A program made the position numbers and the translations under genes. This document shows, piece by piece, positions 2,056 to 8,168 of a stretch of 39,655 bases of DNA (position 1 is the first letter of the stretch; each line of letters begins with the position of its first letter). The notes beneath the pieces are model-generated. The model saw only the letters and a program-made list of their open reading frames with translations. It was not told the origin of the DNA and made no database searches. Source of the DNA: a virus. The stretch covers positions 1 to 39,655 of IMG/VR virus record IMGVR_UViG_3300050821_010685; one strand, 5' to 3'.

Positions 2056-2084
2056 TTGACAAGAACGAATATCTCTACTAATAT
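2056..2084 (+). promoter_or_regulatory. strong rightward promoter of the ERF operon
   Basis: TTGACA (2056-2061), 17-base spacer, TAATAT (2079-2084): perfect -35, ideal spacing and a near-consensus -10. The predicted first transcribed base is G2091, exactly the first base of the structured RNA that follows. It is one of the two best promoters in the window and probably drives early transcription. Confidence 0.75.
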
Positions 2085-2090
2085 TAGGAT

Positions 2091-2162
2091 GCGGCCTACC
2101 AGGTTAATGTTTTTCGACCCTACATTGACCAAGCTGTCACAGCGCAGTGGTAGTCCGCACCA
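2091..2162 (+). ncRNA. candidate structured leader RNA, three-way junction
   Basis: A GC-rich island in AT-rich DNA that folds by hand into three helices. P1: 2091-2101 with 2148-2158, eleven positions with one mismatch (C2095/T2154). P2: 2102-2110 with 2122-2130, nine pairs including one G-U, loop of 11. P3: 2133-2136 with 2140-2143, loop TCA. P1 starts at the predicted transcription start, and P1, P2 and P3 are almost directly adjacent, as in a junction. The 3' side of P1 is followed by ACCA. It lies 38 bases upstream of the erf start codon. I do not recognise a known riboswitch, ribozyme or tRNA in it; it may control erf translation, stabilise the mRNA 5' end or act as a small RNA. Confidence 0.55.
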
Positions 2163-2200
2163 TAGGGTAATCATTATATTAACATTCAAGGGAGTATAAA

Positions 2201-2935
2201 ATGTCTAAAGAAACTTCGTTCTTAGCGAGTGATTCTATCAATGATTTGAGTAAAGATTTTTCTAAAGCTCAAGCATCATTTAAGAAGGCAATGAAGGATA
2301 AGTTAAATCCTTATTTTGAATCGTCCTACGCAGACCTATCTAGCATTATTGATGCAATTAGGCCCATTCTCGCTGAAAATAATCTTAGCTTCATCCAGAC
2401 ATGTAATGACAAAGAGAATCACGCTTCCGTATCGACATTTATCTTGCATTCATCAGGCCAATGGATTAACTGCGGCACTGTTTCTGTACCTGTCAATAAG
2501 AAGGATGCGCAGGGATATGGAAGCGCTTTAACATATGCTAGAAGATATTCTCTCGCTGCCGCTTTCGGGGTAGCAACAGAAGATGATGACGCAAACGCTG
2601 CCACTCATCCCGGAGTAAAAAAACCCACTCCAGTTCAATCAAGAGAAAATACAAAACAAAACTATTCTTCACCTCCTAAACCAAGTCCTATACCACGTCC
2701 AAAACCAATGGCCGCTAAAGAATTGACGGACTTTACTAGCATGGAAAGAATACTGGCAATACAAAATTTGGCCAAATCCTTAGGTAAGGGAGAGAGTTTT
2801 CTTATAGACAGTATTAAAAAACAATTGGGTCATGATAATTTATTTGAAATACCAAAAAAATTCGGAGATGGACTATTTTTTTTCTTGCAAAAACAGATGG
2901 ACGAGAATAAGAAGTTTGTACGAGATATGGGGTAA
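2201..2935 (+). CDS. erf: ERF-family single-strand annealing protein
   Basis: Anneals complementary single strands in phage recombination (P22 Erf type). Family hallmarks are clear: NPYFESSYADL at residues 36-46, RPILAENNLSF at 54-64, the GYGSALTYARRYS block at 105-117 and the acidic EDDDAN at 127-132. A Pro/Lys-rich linker (about 138-175) joins this core to a C-terminal domain that is not recognised and may bind partners. Length 244 is usual for the family (P22 Erf is about 200). AAGGGAG lies 6 bases before the ATG. It is the first gene behind the consensus promoter and the structured leader. It would work with the SSB at 7734 and the VRR-NUC nuclease at 33331. Confidence 0.93.
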   Translation: MSKETSFLASDSINDLSKDFSKAQASFKKAMKDKLNPYFESSYADLSSIIDAIRPILAENNLSFIQTCNDKENHASVSTFILHSSGQWINCGTVSVPVNKKDAQGYGSALTYARRYSLAAAFGVATEDDDANAATHPGVKKPTPVQSRENTKQNYSSPPKPSPIPRPKPMAAKELTDFTSMERILAIQNLAKSLGKGESFLIDSIKKQLGHDNLFEIPKKFGDGLFFFLQKQMDENKKFVRDMG

Positions 2936-2943
2936 TATAATTT

Positions 2944-3525
2944 ATGAAAATATCATCCATATCTGATATGAGAAATATTCTGGTAGAGAAAATGCCAGAG
3001 CCTATAATCGATGTATTTTTATCTTCTTTTAATAGGATAAACCAAAATACAGTAGATTCCAATACTATAGGGAAGAAAATAGCAAGATTTCTATTATTGA
3101 ATCCAACTTTCGGAATTATGAAGTTTATTAAAGAAAATGATCAAAAAGAAATGGTCATGAAAATATATAGAAATATTTTAAAAGAGTATTATCATGATAA
3201 AAATATTTTGAGCCACGAAACGAGATTGTTATATAATAAAGCGTGCTCTCATGCTCGTATTATATCGTATTCATTGTGTCATGCACAAAGATGTCGAGAT
3301 CAGGAGACGATATCTTTCATAAAAGAAGAACATATTATAGCTGAAAAACTGGTTTTTGCATTATATGCTGCTCATTATATTAATCAGTGTAATATCAATA
3401 ATGCTATCCTAAATTTAATGAGAGCTCATATTTTCATTAGAAAAAATAGTTATTTTATCTTGGTATTAGCTAAAAGGCTCATCTTTTTGTTGAATACTTG
3501 CAATGTACGAAAAGATATATTATAA
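2944..3525 (+). CDS. hypothetical helical protein (193 aa)
   Basis: Mostly alpha-helical, basic protein with several Cys and His residues scattered at about 100-150 (SHARIISYSLCHAQRC). No signal peptide or transmembrane helix. It starts 8 bases after erf in the same operon, so a role in recombination or early host takeover is possible, but no family is recognised. The C-terminus is basic and hydrophobic. Confidence 0.7.
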   Translation: MKISSISDMRNILVEKMPEPIIDVFLSSFNRINQNTVDSNTIGKKIARFLLLNPTFGIMKFIKENDQKEMVMKIYRNILKEYYHDKNILSHETRLLYNKACSHARIISYSLCHAQRCRDQETISFIKEEHIIAEKLVFALYAAHYINQCNINNAILNLMRAHIFIRKNSYFILVLAKRLIFLLNTCNVRKDIL

Positions 3526-3606
3526 TAATAGAGTAAATTAGATAATATTAGTATTGTCTTAATTTATAAAATATTTTTATAGGAAATTTTAAGGAGAATT
3601 TGAATT

Positions 3607-4656
3607 ATGGCTTCAGTTAAAATTGATAAACTAACCCCGGAACAGCAAGCTAAGTTTCCAGTCTATGTGGAAAAATATTTAAAGTTTGGATTGTGTACCG
3701 ATCCTATTAATCCTACTGTTGTTAAGAAGAACATTAATAGTCTGTATAAAACTGTTGGATTTGCTCATCCTAAGCATATTGTTTTTACTCCCTCTCCATT
3801 TGCTATGATTATTACAAAAATAATAGTAGAAACGATGATGGATTATTTTGATAAAAATCCTAAAAAACTAGATCTGATAGGTGAGATATTGTCCTGCATA
3901 TTATACAAGGATAATCAAAAACCATTACCTGTTTTCAAGAAACAAGAAGATAAAGATCTATGTGATAAGATAGTAGAGATCGTCAGAGATAAGGAAAAGT
4001 GGAAAGAAGCTGCAAATGAACTTTATAAATGCGGATATGGCTATCATGATGCATCATGGGTGGCATTTTACGATTTCTTTAGAACTGAATGTAAGCTAAA
4101 AAAAGAAACCGAAAAATTAGTTCCTCTTAAAAAGTTAGTGCAAACCTGTGGTTGGTATCTGCCGTATGAGAATTATTGTTTCGTTTCAGACAGAAACAAT
4201 ATTCAGCATCTTGATATCAACGGACGGCTGCATAATGATAAAGGACCCGCATTGGCTTATCGGGATGGGTTCTCATTATACATGATTCATGGCGTTAGGA
4301 TTCCACCCTATATCATTACAAATCCAGAGCGTTTAACAGTTGATGAGATCGATAATGAAAGAAACCAGGAAGTTAAACGTGTGATGCTTGATAAGTATGG
4401 GTTTGAAAATTATATTAAGAATTCAGGAGCTAAACTAATTCATTCGGATGAAAAGGGTGATTTATATCGCCGTGAATACGGAAATGGAGAGGAACCATTT
4501 TGCTTTATTATTGTTACGGATGCCACACCGGAACCAGACGGCACATTTAAAAAGTATATGTTAGGAGTAGACGAAGAGGATAAAACAGCCACTCAAGCAG
4601 CGGCAAGAACATTTAATCGTACTCCGGAAACATATAAACCTGTTTACGAAACTTAG
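3607..4656 (+). CDS. DUF6745-like protein (349 aa)
   Basis: The centre matches what I recall of DUF6745 proteins: RLHNDKGPALAYRDG (207-221), SLYMIHGVRIP (223-233), a TNPERLT-VDEI stretch (238-248) and RVMLDKYG (258-265). The C-terminus has the family's TPEPDGT-FKKYMLGV segment (about 309-323) followed by an Ala-rich helix. The N-terminal half (1-170) is helical and less conserved. Biochemical function is not established as far as I know. AAGGAG precedes the ATG. It is followed by a 58-codon gene and by a gene for a conserved ATGHRHA-type protein; I recall homologues of the two larger products being neighbours in other bacteria, so the trio looks like a unit carried as phage cargo. Confidence 0.75.
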   Translation: MASVKIDKLTPEQQAKFPVYVEKYLKFGLCTDPINPTVVKKNINSLYKTVGFAHPKHIVFTPSPFAMIITKIIVETMMDYFDKNPKKLDLIGEILSCILYKDNQKPLPVFKKQEDKDLCDKIVEIVRDKEKWKEAANELYKCGYGYHDASWVAFYDFFRTECKLKKETEKLVPLKKLVQTCGWYLPYENYCFVSDRNNIQHLDINGRLHNDKGPALAYRDGFSLYMIHGVRIPPYIITNPERLTVDEIDNERNQEVKRVMLDKYGFENYIKNSGAKLIHSDEKGDLYRREYGNGEEPFCFIIVTDATPEPDGTFKKYMLGVDEEDKTATQAAARTFNRTPETYKPVYET

Positions 4657-4680
4657 CATAAAGGAGGATAATTTTTATGC
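4656..4680 (+). promoter_or_regulatory. hairpin with the SD in its loop; candidate CsrA site
   Basis: GCATAAA (4656-4662) pairs perfectly with TTTATGC (4674-4680). The 11-base loop GGAGGATAATT carries two GGA motifs, which are also the SD of the next gene, and the start ATG (4677-4679) sits in the 3' arm. GGA in a hairpin loop over a ribosome-binding site is the classic CsrA target architecture, and a csrA gene lies 700 bases downstream. Binding itself is inference. Confidence 0.45.
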
Positions 4681-4853
4681 ATAAAGAGTATATTATGGGA
4701 ATTGGTGATAGCATATCACGATCTATTGCTGATGTTCCTTTATTAGAACAAACGGCAATTAAAATGGTTGAGCAAACTGCTAAAAAAACGAGTTCTCTGG
4801 AACAGTTGATAGTAGATTCAATTTTAAACAATATAGGAGAAGACAATGCGTAA
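4677..4853 (+). CDS. small hypothetical protein (58 aa)
   Basis: Frame of 58 codons with a very strong SD (AAGGAGG). It fills the gap between the DUF6745-like gene and the ATGHRHA-type gene and overlaps the latter by 8 bases, so it is almost certainly translated. The protein is a likely amphipathic helix bundle (starts MHKEYIMGIGDS, later LLEQTAIKMVEQTAKK) without a membrane segment. A hairpin covers its ribosome-binding site. Function unknown; possibly a small partner in the trio. Confidence 0.7.
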   Translation: MHKEYIMGIGDSISRSIADVPLLEQTAIKMVEQTAKKTSSLEQLIVDSILNNIGEDNA

Positions 4854-5220
4854 AAGTAAATTTGATGGAACCTTAAAGCCTGGTGAAGGCGTTAGGCAAG
4901 GGGATTTCTATATAGAAAAAGTTTCTGAAGTTCCTGAGTTGGAATCAACTCCTCTGCAATCTTTAGAGGGTCCTTCCGTACCAGGTTTATTGATTATTGG
5001 TTTGGGAGAAGCAACTGGACACAGACATGCTATCCTTGTAGACCAAGGAAATGCTAAGATGTTTAAGGCTATTAATTCGGATAAAGTATATCTGATGGTC
5101 GAGAAAGATACATTTTTGACGCATGATACACACGGAAAAATTCCATTAAAGAAAGGCCCATATGAAATAGTTAAACAACAGGAAAAATTACACGGAAGGG
5201 TACGAGCTGTTGCCGACTAA
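4846..5220 (+). CDS. conserved ATGHRHA-motif protein (124 aa)
   Basis: Beta-rich small protein with the motif GEATGHRHAI at about residues 54-63, then THDTHGKIPL and a C-terminal KGPYEIVKQQE ... RAVAD. Three His in the two motifs could bind metal in a cupin-like fold, which is inference. I recall this family (GEATGHxHAI ... HEEHxPIxLPxGxYxVxxQREY) as a frequent neighbour of DUF6745 proteins. It begins inside the end of the 58-codon gene and is followed by a long inverted repeat before csrA. Confidence 0.75.
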   Translation: MRKSKFDGTLKPGEGVRQGDFYIEKVSEVPELESTPLQSLEGPSVPGLLIIGLGEATGHRHAILVDQGNAKMFKAINSDKVYLMVEKDTFLTHDTHGKIPLKKGPYEIVKQQEKLHGRVRAVAD

Positions 5221-5237
5221 AAACGTATCTATATAAT

Positions 5238-5308
5238 TAGTTTGGCTTATATTTGACTTGTACAGAAAGTTTTCCCTTTGAGAATTTTCTCTTATATAGG
5301 CCAAACTA
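5238..5308. repeat. 15-bp inverted repeat with 41-base spacer, csrA leader
   Basis: Left arm 5238-5252 (TAGTTTGGCTTATAT) and right arm 5294-5308 (ATATAGGCCAAACTA) are complementary except for one position that is a G-U pair in RNA. The 41 bases between contain further short pairings (AAAG/CTTT, AGAAA/TTTCT). It fills the gap between the ATGHRHA gene and csrA, and a TATAAT box (5307-5312) overlaps the right arm. It is not followed by a T-run, so a classical terminator is unlikely. It could be an operator, attenuator or RNA-processing site. Confidence 0.6.
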
Positions 5309-5352
5309 TAATAGAAATTTTATGTTTTTAAATTTATTGAAGGAGCATATTA

Positions 5353-5628
5353 ATGGATGATGTCATAGAATCTGGCAATATTCCAAATCCCAATCCTATA
5401 GAGGGTAAGTTAATATTAACAAGGCGTGTTTCTGAAGTTATTATGATAGGAGATGATATTAGAATAACTATCCTTAATATAAACGGAAATCAAGTAAGAT
5501 TAGGGATACAAGCTCCTAAAAAAATTCCAATTTATAGAGAAGAAATTTACATGAGGATAAAAGCTGAGTTAAATGAGAATATTTCTGTAGATAATGCTAT
5601 TATTGAAGATAAGGAAAATATCCAATGA
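5353..5628 (+). CDS. csrA: CsrA/RsmA-type RNA-binding translational regulator
   Basis: Binds GGA motifs in mRNA leaders and blocks or alters translation. The family core runs from residue 20 to about 72: LILTRRVSE (20-28), IGDDIRITI (32-40), NQVRLGI-APK (46-56), YREEIYMRI (61-69). The residues that contact RNA in CsrA, the LTRR strand and the Arg of REEI (R62), are present, so RNA binding is probably intact. Unlike chromosomal CsrA, which starts at MLIL, this one has an extra N-terminus of about 18 residues (NIPNPNP) and an acidic tail. GAAGGAG lies 8 bases before the ATG. It is followed by a Phd-like gene overlapping by ATGA. CsrA copies occur on Legionella and other mobile elements; on a virion-encoding genome they are unusual. 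Confidence 0.93.
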
Positions 5629-5813
5629 CTATAGAACAAAAGTCTATTAAGACAGTTAATATCGTCAAGTTAAGAGATGAATTCGCTGAATATGTGAATC
5701 TTGCAAAATATGGCAAAGAAAGAATTTTAATTTTTAGAAGGGGAAAACCAGTAGCAGCTATTGTTTCAATACAAGATTTACGTATTTTGGATCAAAATAT
5801 TTTGACAGATTGA
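5625..5813 (+). CDS. Phd/YefM-like antitoxin (62 aa), no toxin nearby
   Basis: The pattern [20 protein letters not shown] at about residues 11-30, then [20 protein letters not shown], is the N-terminal DNA-binding fold of Phd/YefM antitoxins, which autoregulate their operon and neutralise a Doc or RelE-type toxin. The family is usually 75-90 residues; this copy stops soon after the DNA-binding part and lacks most of the toxin-binding tail. The next genes (50 and 53 codons) do not look like known toxins. It is coupled to csrA by ATGA. It may be an orphan antitoxin acting against a host toxin, or simply a repressor. Confidence 0.75.
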
Positions 5814-5815
5814 TA

Positions 5816-5968
5816 ATGCATAGTACTATACTATTAGATAGTCCAGGATATTTTTTATTTGAAGAATTAAATAAAAAAATATCTGATGAAATATGGAGAG
5901 AACTTCCTATGATTATTGATGAGAATGTTATTATAGGAATAGAAGAAATCATTAAATTAATAAAATGA
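5816..5968 (+). CDS. small hypothetical protein (50 aa)
   Basis: Frame of 50 codons starting 2 bases after the Phd-like gene and ending in an ATGA overlap with the next gene. The product (starts MHSTILLDSPGYFLFEEL) is acidic and helical. Its place right after an antitoxin gene makes it worth considering as a partner, but it matches no toxin I know. Confidence 0.5.
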   Translation: MHSTILLDSPGYFLFEELNKKISDEIWRELPMIIDENVIIGIEEIIKLIK

Positions 5969-6126
5969 TATTAATCGCAGATAAATTAGAAAGAAAAGTT
6001 TCGAAAATATGTTCAATTTTGCCAGATCTTATAATTTGTAAAGTTGTTGCAAACATAGAGATGATGATATCAAACGAGATTATAAAAATATTAATTCGTG
6101 AAATACATGATAAAATAGAGTCGTAG
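5965..6126 (+). CDS. small hypothetical protein (53 aa)
   Basis: Frame of 53 codons opened by an ATGA overlap with the 50-codon gene. Alternating hydrophobic and charged residues suggest one amphipathic helix pair; it has two Cys. The second half (MMISNEIIKILIREIHDKI) loosely resembles the 64-residue product at 1101-1295. Function unknown. Confidence 0.5.
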   Translation: MILIADKLERKVSKICSILPDLIICKVVANIEMMISNEIIKILIREIHDKIES

Positions 6127-6185
6127 AAGTCATGCATCTAGTATTATATTTTTTCTATTCCGGGAAATAAGGAAAATACATATAT

Positions 6186-6383
6186 ATGAAAATGATATGT
6201 AATAATGAAAACAATTTGTCTTTTGTTTGCACGATAGGCTTATATGAAGTATTTCAAAGAAAAATTTCTTATAATGTCAGTAATTTAGTAGAATATCGGA
6301 TCCCGTTTGCAATACAGCAACAAGAAATTAGGATTGCTTTGTGTAGAGAATGTAAATACAATCTTGAAGGAATACAAGAATGA
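6186..6383 (+). CDS. small hypothetical protein (65 aa), C-terminal CxxC
   Basis: First of three coupled genes; AAGGA lies about 12 bases before the ATG. The product ends with CRECKYNLEG, a CxxC pair, and has two more Cys near the N-terminus, so a small zinc site is possible. It overlaps the next gene by ATGA. Not recognised. Confidence 0.5.
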   Translation: MKMICNNENNLSFVCTIGLYEVFQRKISYNVSNLVEYRIPFAIQQQEIRIALCRECKYNLEGIQE

Positions 6384-6583
6384 AGAAGATAAAATGGGAC
6401 AACGAAAGTCGATATATTGTATCTTCTATTATTTCTATTGGATATAAAAACGAATATTTTTCTCCATATATCTTTCTTTTAGTTAAGGAATTTATGGTAT
6501 ATAAAATAGGAAGAAATGAATTGATTATTGAAGAATCTGTCAGACAAGAAATAAAACTCTTAGTAGGAGAATATCATGCATAA
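6380..6583 (+). CDS. small hypothetical protein (67 aa)
   Basis: Coupled to its upstream neighbour by ATGA and to the downstream gene by an 8-base overlap. The product starts MKKIKWDNESRYIV and is rich in aromatic and hydrophobic residues, but it has no long uninterrupted membrane segment. No family recognised. Confidence 0.5.
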   Translation: MKKIKWDNESRYIVSSIISIGYKNEYFSPYIFLLVKEFMVYKIGRNELIIEESVRQEIKLLVGEYHA

Positions 6584-6806
6584 AACACTTACCGTAAAGT
6601 GGTTGTTAGGAACACTAAAAGCATTGAAACTGAAATACAAACGAAGTGGTTTATACTATATAGACCAGAATGGTCAATTTAATACGATTGAATCAGTAAC
6701 ATTCTCAGAGGGAGGCAGCGTATTATTAATAGGAAATCCAATTAATAAATTCGTAAGCCCCCCTTCTGAAAAAGAAACTATTTCTTCTTCTTCTTCAAAC
6801 CCCTAA
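6576..6806 (+). CDS. small hypothetical protein (76 aa)
   Basis: Basic N-terminus (KTLTVKWLLGTLKALKLKYKR) and a Ser-rich tail. TAGGAG lies 7 bases before the ATG. It is the last gene of the rightward early block. Its 3' end overlaps the convergent leftward gene by 29 bases; the Ser run (SSSSS) is the antisense of that gene's Lys run, so the exact C-terminus may be dictated by the other gene. Confidence 0.5.
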   Translation: MHKTLTVKWLLGTLKALKLKYKRSGLYYIDQNGQFNTIESVTFSEGGSVLLIGNPINKFVSPPSEKETISSSSSNP

Positions 6807-6978
6807 CATTTTTAGCAAATTGAGCTCGTTCTCTCGTTAACTTGTTCTTAGAATTTAGGGCTTTATCCAGTTTTTCTTCAGGGATTTTTTTACCTTTTTT
6901 TGCTTTTAGAGTACTTCTTAATTTGCCAACATTCTCTTCCTTAACGGCTTTTTGAATCCATTTTTCTTTAGTTGCCAT
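6778..6978 (-). CDS. small Lys-rich conserved phage protein (66 aa)
   Basis: Starts MATKEKWIQKAVKEENVG, with a central KKGKKIPEEKLDKAL and a C-terminal KKKKK. This K-W-IQ-A, G-K-IP-KL-A pattern is a small basic protein seen in many phages and prophages, often near structural genes; its role is unknown, though DNA or virion association is plausible. The start was chosen because CGGAG lies 9 bases before it; an in-frame start 11 codons earlier has no SD. The gene has its own promoter at 7021-7049. Confidence 0.75.
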   Translation of the reverse strand: MATKEKWIQKAVKEENVGKLRSTLKAKKGKKIPEEKLDKALNSKNKLTRERAQFAKNVRGLKKKKK

Positions 6979-7020
6979 GCGTTTATCTCCGATAGTTAAT
7001 AAATAAAACAAATCGGATGG

Positions 7021-7049
7021 ATTCTAATACATTATTAATTGAAATGCAA
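7021..7049 (-). promoter_or_regulatory. promoter of the 66-aa basic protein
   Basis: On the minus strand: TTGCAT (7044-7049), 17-base spacer, TAGAAT (7021-7026), in the short gap behind the 75-codon gene. The transcript would begin near 7014 with a leader of about 36 bases. Confidence 0.5.
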
Positions 7050-7050
7050 A

Positions 7051-7278
7051 TTAAATAGAATTCTCGTTATTTAACCAACAATCTATATATATATTCTGTA
7101 AAGAATTATATATACTATTTATAAAATCAAAAATAATCTGAAGATTTTCAATATCTTTCTCATAAGTAGGGCATTCTAAAAGAATATCATCGAAACTGGG
7201 AGAAGTTGAATCCATAACCGCTTTCTTTATATCCTCCATAAGTTGAGCATAATATACAACAAGATCATTACCGAGCAT
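7051..7278 (-). CDS. small hypothetical protein (75 aa)
   Basis: The ATG at 7278 (MLGNDLVVYYAQ) is preferred because AAGGA lies about 11 bases upstream; a TTG eight codons earlier has no SD. It overlaps the upstream gene by 11 bases. The product is acidic and helical with two Cys. Near its 3' end the DNA forms an imperfect AT-rich palindrome (7086-7114). Function unknown. Confidence 0.5.
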   Translation of the reverse strand: MLGNDLVVYYAQLMEDIKKAVMDSTSPSFDDILLECPTYEKDIENLQIIFDFINSIYNSLQNIYIDCWLNNENSI

Positions 7279-7558
7279 GAGGATAGCTTTCCTTAATATC
7301 AAAATTACAATGCAATTGAGAATGAGTGTATATTTTAATCATACCTTCTTCGATAACGATATAATCATTTACCAATACCATTGTCTTTGTAGGTGGCGCT
7401 ATAGTAGAAGACCATGTAATGGTCAAAATTTCTTCGGTATTAGTAAAAGAGAAATTTCTATTAGGAAAATAATTCATCAGAACTTGTTTTATTTCTTCTA
7501 AATTATTACCTTCGTAACTGATTGCAACAATTTTTTTTCTTTCAAGACTAAATATCAA
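7268..7558 (-). CDS. hypothetical protein (96 aa), TTG start
   Basis: The start is TTG, chosen because AAAGGA lies 9 bases before it and no in-frame ATG is near. The product (MIFSLERKKIVAISYEG...) looks alpha/beta with a central beta-rich stretch (TMVLVNDYIVIEEGMIKI). It is the first leftward gene from the divergent region at 7560-7733. Not recognised. Confidence 0.55.
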   Translation of the reverse strand: MIFSLERKKIVAISYEGNNLEEIKQVLMNYFPNRNFSFTNTEEILTITWSSTIAPPTKTMVLVNDYIVIEEGMIKIYTHSQLHCNFDIKESYPHAR

Positions 7559-7610
7559 TTTTTTGTTTCCTTTTGGTTGTTACATAATAATGTGTATGCT
7601 AGCATATGAA

Positions 7611-7665
7611 AGTCCCTGAATCAAGAATGATAAAGTAGTAGTCCCTCATGTCTTGAGGAGGGGAC
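7611..7665. repeat. direct and inverted AGTCCCT repeats in divergent region
   Basis: AGTCCCT occurs at 7611-7617 and again at 7640-7646, and its inverse AGGGGAC at 7659-7665. TCAAGA (7621-7626) is also mirrored by TCTTGA (7651-7656). Either copy of GTCCCT can pair with the single GGGAC, so two mutually exclusive stems are possible in RNA; as DNA, the three motifs could be repressor half-sites between the leftward gene and the ssb promoter. Confidence 0.45.
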
Positions 7666-7669
7666 ATTA

Positions 7670-7698
7670 TTGCTAATTTTTAATAAAAAAGATATACT
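7670..7698 (+). promoter_or_regulatory. promoter of the SSB gene
   Basis: TTGCTA (7670-7675), 17-base spacer, TATACT (7693-7698). The predicted start near 7705 leaves a leader of about 30 bases. It lies directly behind the AGTCCCT repeats. Confidence 0.6.
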
Positions 7699-7700
7699 GT

Positions 7701-7721
7701 TATTTATTATCTTAATAAATA
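7701..7721 (+). promoter_or_regulatory. 9-bp hairpin beside the ssb ribosome-binding site
   Basis: TATTTATTA (7701-7709) pairs with TAATAAATA (7713-7721) around the loop TCT. The SD GAGG (7722-7725) follows without a gap. It is all A/T and therefore weak, but perfect; its first bases may precede the transcription start. Confidence 0.4.
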
Positions 7722-7733
7722 GAGGTTCAATGT

Positions 7734-8168
7734 ATGTCACGCGGAATCAATAAAGTTATATTAGTTGGTCATGTAGGTTTTGATCCTATCTTGAAGCAAA
7801 TGCCAAATGGTTATGGCGTAGTAAATTTAGTAATAGCAACTAATATTGATCATAAAAATAAAACAACCGGTCAGAAGGTCACTCATACAGAATGGCATAA
7901 GCTTGTATTTTTTTCTACGTTAGCAGAAATTGTAAACAAAATCGTAAAGAAGGGAAATAAAATTTATGTAGAAGGAAGTCTTAGGACAAAAAAATGGAAG
8001 AATGCCGATAATATGGATATATACAGTACAGAAATTATATGTCATGAGATTCAGTTATTAGATTCTAGGAAAGGAGAAGATGGGAAGAATGAAGAAGATA
8101 ATATTGGAAATTATTTTCCACCTGATTCAAAAGAAGACTTTGAATTCGAAGAAATATTTTCAGCATAA
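7734..8168 (+). CDS. ssb: single-stranded DNA-binding protein
   Basis: Coats ssDNA during replication and recombination. The OB-fold signature is complete: SRGINKVILVGHVGFDP (2-18), VVNLVIATN (29-37), TEWHKLVFF (52-60), GNKIYVEGSLRTKKW (74-88). The C-terminal tail is acidic but ends EEIFSA instead of the DDDIPF tip by which bacterial SSB recruits partner enzymes, so host-protein recruitment may differ. Length 144 is usual for phage SSB. It has its own promoter and is a single-gene unit, convergent with the virion operon, whose last stop is 9 bases away. Likely partner of the ERF protein. Confidence 0.95.
   Translation: MSRGINKVILVGHVGFDPILKQMPNGYGVVNLVIATNIDHKNKTTGQKVTHTEWHKLVFFSTLAEIVNKIVKKGNKIYVEGSLRTKKWKNADNMDIYSTEIICHEIQLLDSRKGEDGKNEEDNIGNYFPPDSKEDFEFEEIFSA

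Follow-up and report, generated by a model that had tools for sequence, protein, structure and literature searches.

A predicted branched RNA structure at the putative 5′ end of the erf operon message of an orphan phage

The window, that is, the whole stretch of 39,655 nucleotides analysed here (IMG/VR record IMGVR_UViG_3300050821_010685), comes from a phage that encodes a P22-like portal protein (PF16510), a terminase, Erf, SSB and a CsrA homologue. The rightward operon, 2201-8168, is 6 kb long and starts with erf, the gene of a single-strand annealing protein. Further along the + strand are the genes of a DUF6745 protein (3607-4653), whose plasmid relatives are mostly actinobacterial, and of a Phd/YefM-type antitoxin (5625-5810). 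The leftward operon and the erf operon are separated by a divergent gap, 1971-2200, inside which lies a G+C-rich island (2091-2158). The change in composition is abrupt: the G+C content of 2091-2162 is 54%, and that of the flanks is 23% and 26%, in agreement with the first-pass annotation, which had described a G+C-rich island in AT-rich DNA. The features of the region are as follows.

2056..2084, + strand: promoter-like site TTGACA-17-TAATAT, predicted start at about 2091 (2089-2091); consensus scan, 10/12
2091..2101, + strand: 5′ strand of helix P1, GCGG-C-CUACCA; MFE and pair probabilities
2102-2110/2122-2130, + strand: hairpin P2, 9 pairs with one U-G wobble and an 11-nt loop (2111-2121); pair probability 0.97-1.0
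2117..2122, + strand: ACCCUA, P2 loop side of a possible pseudoknot, complementary to 2163-2168
2133..2143, + strand: weak hairpin P3, GCUG-UCA-CAGC, 4 pairs (2133-2136/2140-2143); pair probability 0.63-0.68
2148..2158, + strand: 3′ strand of helix P1, UGGUAG-U-CCGC; MFE and pair probabilities
2163..2168, + strand: UAGGGU, tail side of the possible pseudoknot, just after P1, complementary to 2117-2122
2188..2194, + strand: Shine–Dalgarno-like AAGGGAG of erf, read from the sequence; unpaired with the element in the MFE structure
2201..2935, + strand: erf, gene of the single-strand annealing protein, at the head of the rightward operon; Pfam ERF PF04404 (E 3.7e-29), PHROG 2324

The outer helix P1 is predicted to consist of 10 pairs (2091-2094/2155-2158 and 2096-2101/2148-2153) interrupted by a C2095/U2154 mismatch; U2090-A2159 could add an eleventh pair only with a transcription start upstream of 2091. 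The pair probabilities of P1 and P2 are 0.97-1.0 at all leader lengths tried (110 to 212 nt; 20 and 37 °C); the P1 pairs near the 5′ end stay at about 1.0 as the leader length is varied, and only the P1 pair that borders the junction is lower, 0.63-0.72. P1 and P2 are firm in these predictions, and the three-way junction is likely rather than certain, because the pair probability of P3 is only about 0.65 (0.63-0.65 at 37 °C). The first-pass annotation had counted helices of 11, 9 and 4 bp. Its count stands if the mismatch or U2090-A2159 is included, P1 proper having 10 pairs; the third arm, however, did not prove firm.

The MFE of 2091-2162 is -28.5 kcal/mol on the + strand. Seven of 20,000 dinucleotide shuffles are as low (z = -4.6), and for 2085-2170 none of 200 shuffles is (z = -3.6); these statistics are optimistic, the borders having been picked by eye. 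When 1,982 windows of 88 nt on both strands were scanned, about a dozen other stretches scored as well or better; the fold is unusual, not unique, within the window. The complementary strand reaches -21.8 kcal/mol, and the z-scores of the + and - strands in the window scan are -4.2 and -2.0. The models clearly favour an RNA of the + strand; the U-G pair in P2 is part of the reason for the poorer fold of the complement. A stable branched RNA fold at the predicted start of the message, on the strand proposed earlier, is probably real, and the original observation is confirmed with two reservations: the third arm is weak, and the start is deduced from the promoter-like site.

A start at G2091, 7 nt past the -10 element, would place the first base of the transcript at the first base of P1, and the outer helix does begin at the predicted start, as had been noted. 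The accompanying claim that such agreement is unlikely by chance was too strong. Promoter-like sites of this quality number 17 in the window (distinct sites, both strands), and the chance of a promoter–helix fit within two bases is about 3%, an estimate that assumes random placement over about 150 usable gap bases and presupposes some promoter within the divergent gap. The coincidence is suggestive; it supports the reading of the fold as a 5′-terminal structure without proving it. A weaker promoter-like site on the minus strand, TTTATA-16-TATAAT (2200-2173), would give rise to an antisense RNA of the leader, starting at about 2166. This is near the other edge of the structure, which further weakens the argument from coincidence.

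The loop motif ACCCUA overlaps the paired part of P2 by one base: its last base, 2122, opens the 3′ strand of P2. The loop–tail duplex amounts to -7.1 kcal/mol for its loop part, an energy matched by 1-3% of shuffled or random tails; a dinucleotide shuffle of the short tail gives p 0.73 and is uninformative, presumably because the AGGG run is kept. P1 and P2 differ little in length, so that the loop would reach the tail if P2 folded back against P1. A pseudoknot between 2117-2122 and 2163-2168 is plausible on this model.

Searches for known RNA families gave no match, either in Rfam with the whole window at gathering thresholds or with 1950-2250 at E values up to 10 (riboswitch, ribozyme, c4 antisense, tRNA and other models), in agreement with the first-pass annotation, which had matched the arrangement to no riboswitch or ribozyme family. 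The stretch AGCGCAGUGGUAG (2141-2153) has the common wording of a tRNA D-arm, and a tRNA relic was considered and rejected: ARAGORN detects no tRNA, and there is no match to the tRNA model of Rfam at E up to 10.

No homologues were found by blastn in phages and plasmids or by DNA patterns in IMG/VR and GTDB genomes, where the few matches are due to chance. One IMG/VR pattern search gave nine matches, eight of which are one repeated, near-identical sequence, and another gave a single match; all ten lack the fold and a tRNA and appear coding, a status checked by ORF listing for the single match alone. The covariance model R1, built from this one sequence, has a short reach, and distant homologues may escape it. 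It found no homologue in the window and 21 loci, and no second copy in the window; none in 42 related records and host genomes; nothing significant, with filters off, in erf-bearing phages and HK022; no such leader at 80 IMG/VR erf loci (44-59% identity); and no homologue in 398 Pseudomonadota genomes. The one weak match in the last set, L199 (23 bits, E 0.004 per genome in the 398 genomes), lies inside a 214-aa ORF that by eye resembles a PAS-type sensor protein, was not found in 40 other genomes of the same family and was discarded. The leader is likewise missing from named phages whose Erf is 48-51% identical; with the 80 erf loci, this means that the leader is not general to erf operons. 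As no homologue was found in any collection, covariation cannot be counted.

At one other erf locus, L102, erf is preceded by a long gap that contains CUGGUAG wording, but the piece examined folds no better than shuffles (z -0.08). The gap itself (L102:1168-1494) spans about 300 bases in which no gene is obvious; it directly precedes erf and has repeat-like wording, and Rfam has no match to it. The L102 erf is in the same Candidatus Nitrosotalea bin as L026, the contig with the nearest capsid relative (43%) in the GTDB genomes. L026 carries two tRNA genes and probably belongs to a bacterial phage, its binning with an archaeon being an error. The capsid protein matches at least 130 IMG/VR contigs, none above 43% identity among the matches listed, and few of these relatives have erf. 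No relatives were found via the terminase. On these two grounds the phage is an orphan within the collections searched, from which records very close to the window may have been absent.

The favoured explanation, held tentatively and at slightly less than even likelihood, is that the element is a cis-acting 5′-terminal structure that shields the 5′ end from RppH and from RNase E or J and so prolongs the life of the erf operon message. If transcription begins at about 2091, the RNA would have its first base in P1 already, leaving no single-stranded 5′ end. Such a sealed end would be a poor RppH substrate and would offer neither RNase E nor RNase J an unpaired 5′ stretch to engage, which would lengthen the life of the message. 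The nested arms, perhaps locked by the 2117-2122/2163-2168 pairing, would hold P1 closed, and the A+U-rich stretch 2169-2200 would leave the ribosome binding site free. Fold, strand and position relative to the promoter-like site are predicted here, and from them we infer the start site and the stabilising effect.

Precedents for this mechanism are available. B. subtilis RppH requires at least two unpaired 5′ nucleotides (PMC3997798). The small RNA DrrS, with a 5′-terminal stem in which the first base is paired, is long-lived, and adding two or more unpaired bases before the sealed stem destabilises it (PMC5360333). Classic E. coli work on ompA, papA and 5′-terminal base pairing is cited in a review (PMC3997798). 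In the host of this phage, protection from RppH and RNases may operate in the same way. As in the ompA and papA leaders and DrrS, a helix would begin no more than a base or two from the start, here a predicted one, and would stand ahead of an accessible ribosome binding site. Unlike those stem-loops, the present structure is branched, with a possible loop–tail pseudoknot, and both its start and its effect on half-life are predictions. Three points count against this explanation: a plain hairpin would suffice, and the branched fold with a possible pseudoknot exceeds the need; a start upstream of 2089 would leave the 5′ end unsealed; and the leaders of the 80 related erf genes and of related phages hold nothing alike. 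On present predictions the element is best filed as a structured 5′ leader, an example of an already known kind. If the structure is real, a phage early operon would be making a message whose 5′ end is locked into a branched structure from the outset, an uncomplicated means of preserving recombination mRNA during infection.

A less likely reading, though one with a real share of the probability, is that the island has no RNA function and is a G+C-rich repeat, arisen by chance or recently acquired (such as the remnant of a small inserted element), that happens to follow a promoter. The abrupt compositional border fits this, as do the single copy without a found homologue and the TAGG on both sides (2085-2088 and 2163-2166), which would suit an insertion scar and, being only 4 bases, is possibly due to chance. 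The dozen or so windows that fold equally well against shuffles, and the choice of coordinates by eye, point the same way. However, only 7 of the 20,000 shuffles are as low in energy, the preference for the + strand and the U-G wobble suggest an RNA, and the element sits at the predicted transcription start.

Rather unlikely is a put-like antitermination RNA, a nascent structure that would bind RNA polymerase while the enzyme clears the promoter and, like HK022 putL, allow read-through of terminators in 2201-8168. HK022 put RNA antiterminates in cis and needs no phage protein. HK022 putL is about 70 nt long and lies just downstream of PL, and put RNA is formed of two stem-loops side by side (PMC9378689). 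The present element resembles putL in its length of about 70 nt and in its place on a phage early transcript, directly downstream of a predicted early promoter from which a long operon would be read. The architecture differs: the arms are nested in an outer helix, not arranged in tandem, and no sequence likeness to put was found, the best R1 hit in HK022 26000-40751 having an E value of 2.2 in a record where the put sites are unannotated. Any action on RNA polymerase would be putative. The window has no second copy, and the consensus scan gives a single terminator-like site on the + strand (3240) in the first 4 kb of the operon.

A regulatory leader controlled by a ligand or protein is improbable. 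In such a leader, the CCCU of the P2 loop would pair with the tail UAGGGU, leaving the site open, or with the AGGG of the Shine–Dalgarno sequence, closing it. Aptamers typically combine a branched fold with a pseudoknot, and the predicted fold here, with its possible pseudoknot and a 6-bp loop–tail complementarity matched by 1-3% of controls, would fit that pattern. However, the alternative pairing with AGGG is only 4 bp and weaker, erf is not a metabolic gene, Rfam offers no family at E up to 10 and homologues were not found. The ligand control suggested by the first-pass annotation gained no positive evidence: the consensus scan finds no terminator-like site between 2091 and 2201, which speaks against a transcription attenuator, and the element does not sequester the Shine–Dalgarno sequence in the predicted fold. 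Its further suggestion of a trans-acting RNA likewise drew no positive evidence, since nothing terminates the RNA before erf.

It is similarly improbable that the element is the first member of an undescribed class of phage RNA, a three-way junction at the 5′ terminus of an early transcript, locked by a loop–tail pseudoknot, which would seal the 5′ end and either act on RNA polymerase or switch erf translation. The reading as a new RNA element or class is possible and has no support from comparison. Flaviviral exoribonuclease-resistant RNAs also have a branched fold with pairing of a loop to the 3′ tail, and they stop an exonuclease coming from upstream RNA. The likeness is a resemblance only: here nothing lies upstream, and the putative pairing is made by the first hairpin. 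The element, if real, would be a candidate put-like or stabilising leader outside enteric phages; at present, it is one unconserved example, useful chiefly as a candidate for reporter assays.

Very improbable, finally, is a DNA-level element, with imperfect inverted repeats serving as an operator or single-strand hairpin in a divergent promoter region: the location in the intergenic gap 1971-2200 and the minus-strand site 2200-2173, which would start near the other edge, agree with it, but the fold favours + strand RNA, operators do not resemble a nested arrangement with arms of 10, 9 and 4 pairs, and no adjacent repressor gene was recognised.

Two further observations concern the window. A long inverted repeat at 405-532 leads the scan of folds; the inverted repeat at 453-491 (18 nt, 94% complementary, 3-nt loop), inside the minus-strand ORF 239-535, gives the strongest fold relative to shuffles (z -7.9). 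The csrA homologue (5353-5625, + strand; PF02599, E 4.6e-23) belongs to the same operon as erf, and the erf Shine–Dalgarno sequence AAGGGAG (2188-2194) contains GGA, placed within a weakly predicted hairpin loop. Given this GGA and the presence of csrA in the operon, autoregulation of the operon by the phage CsrA is conceivable.
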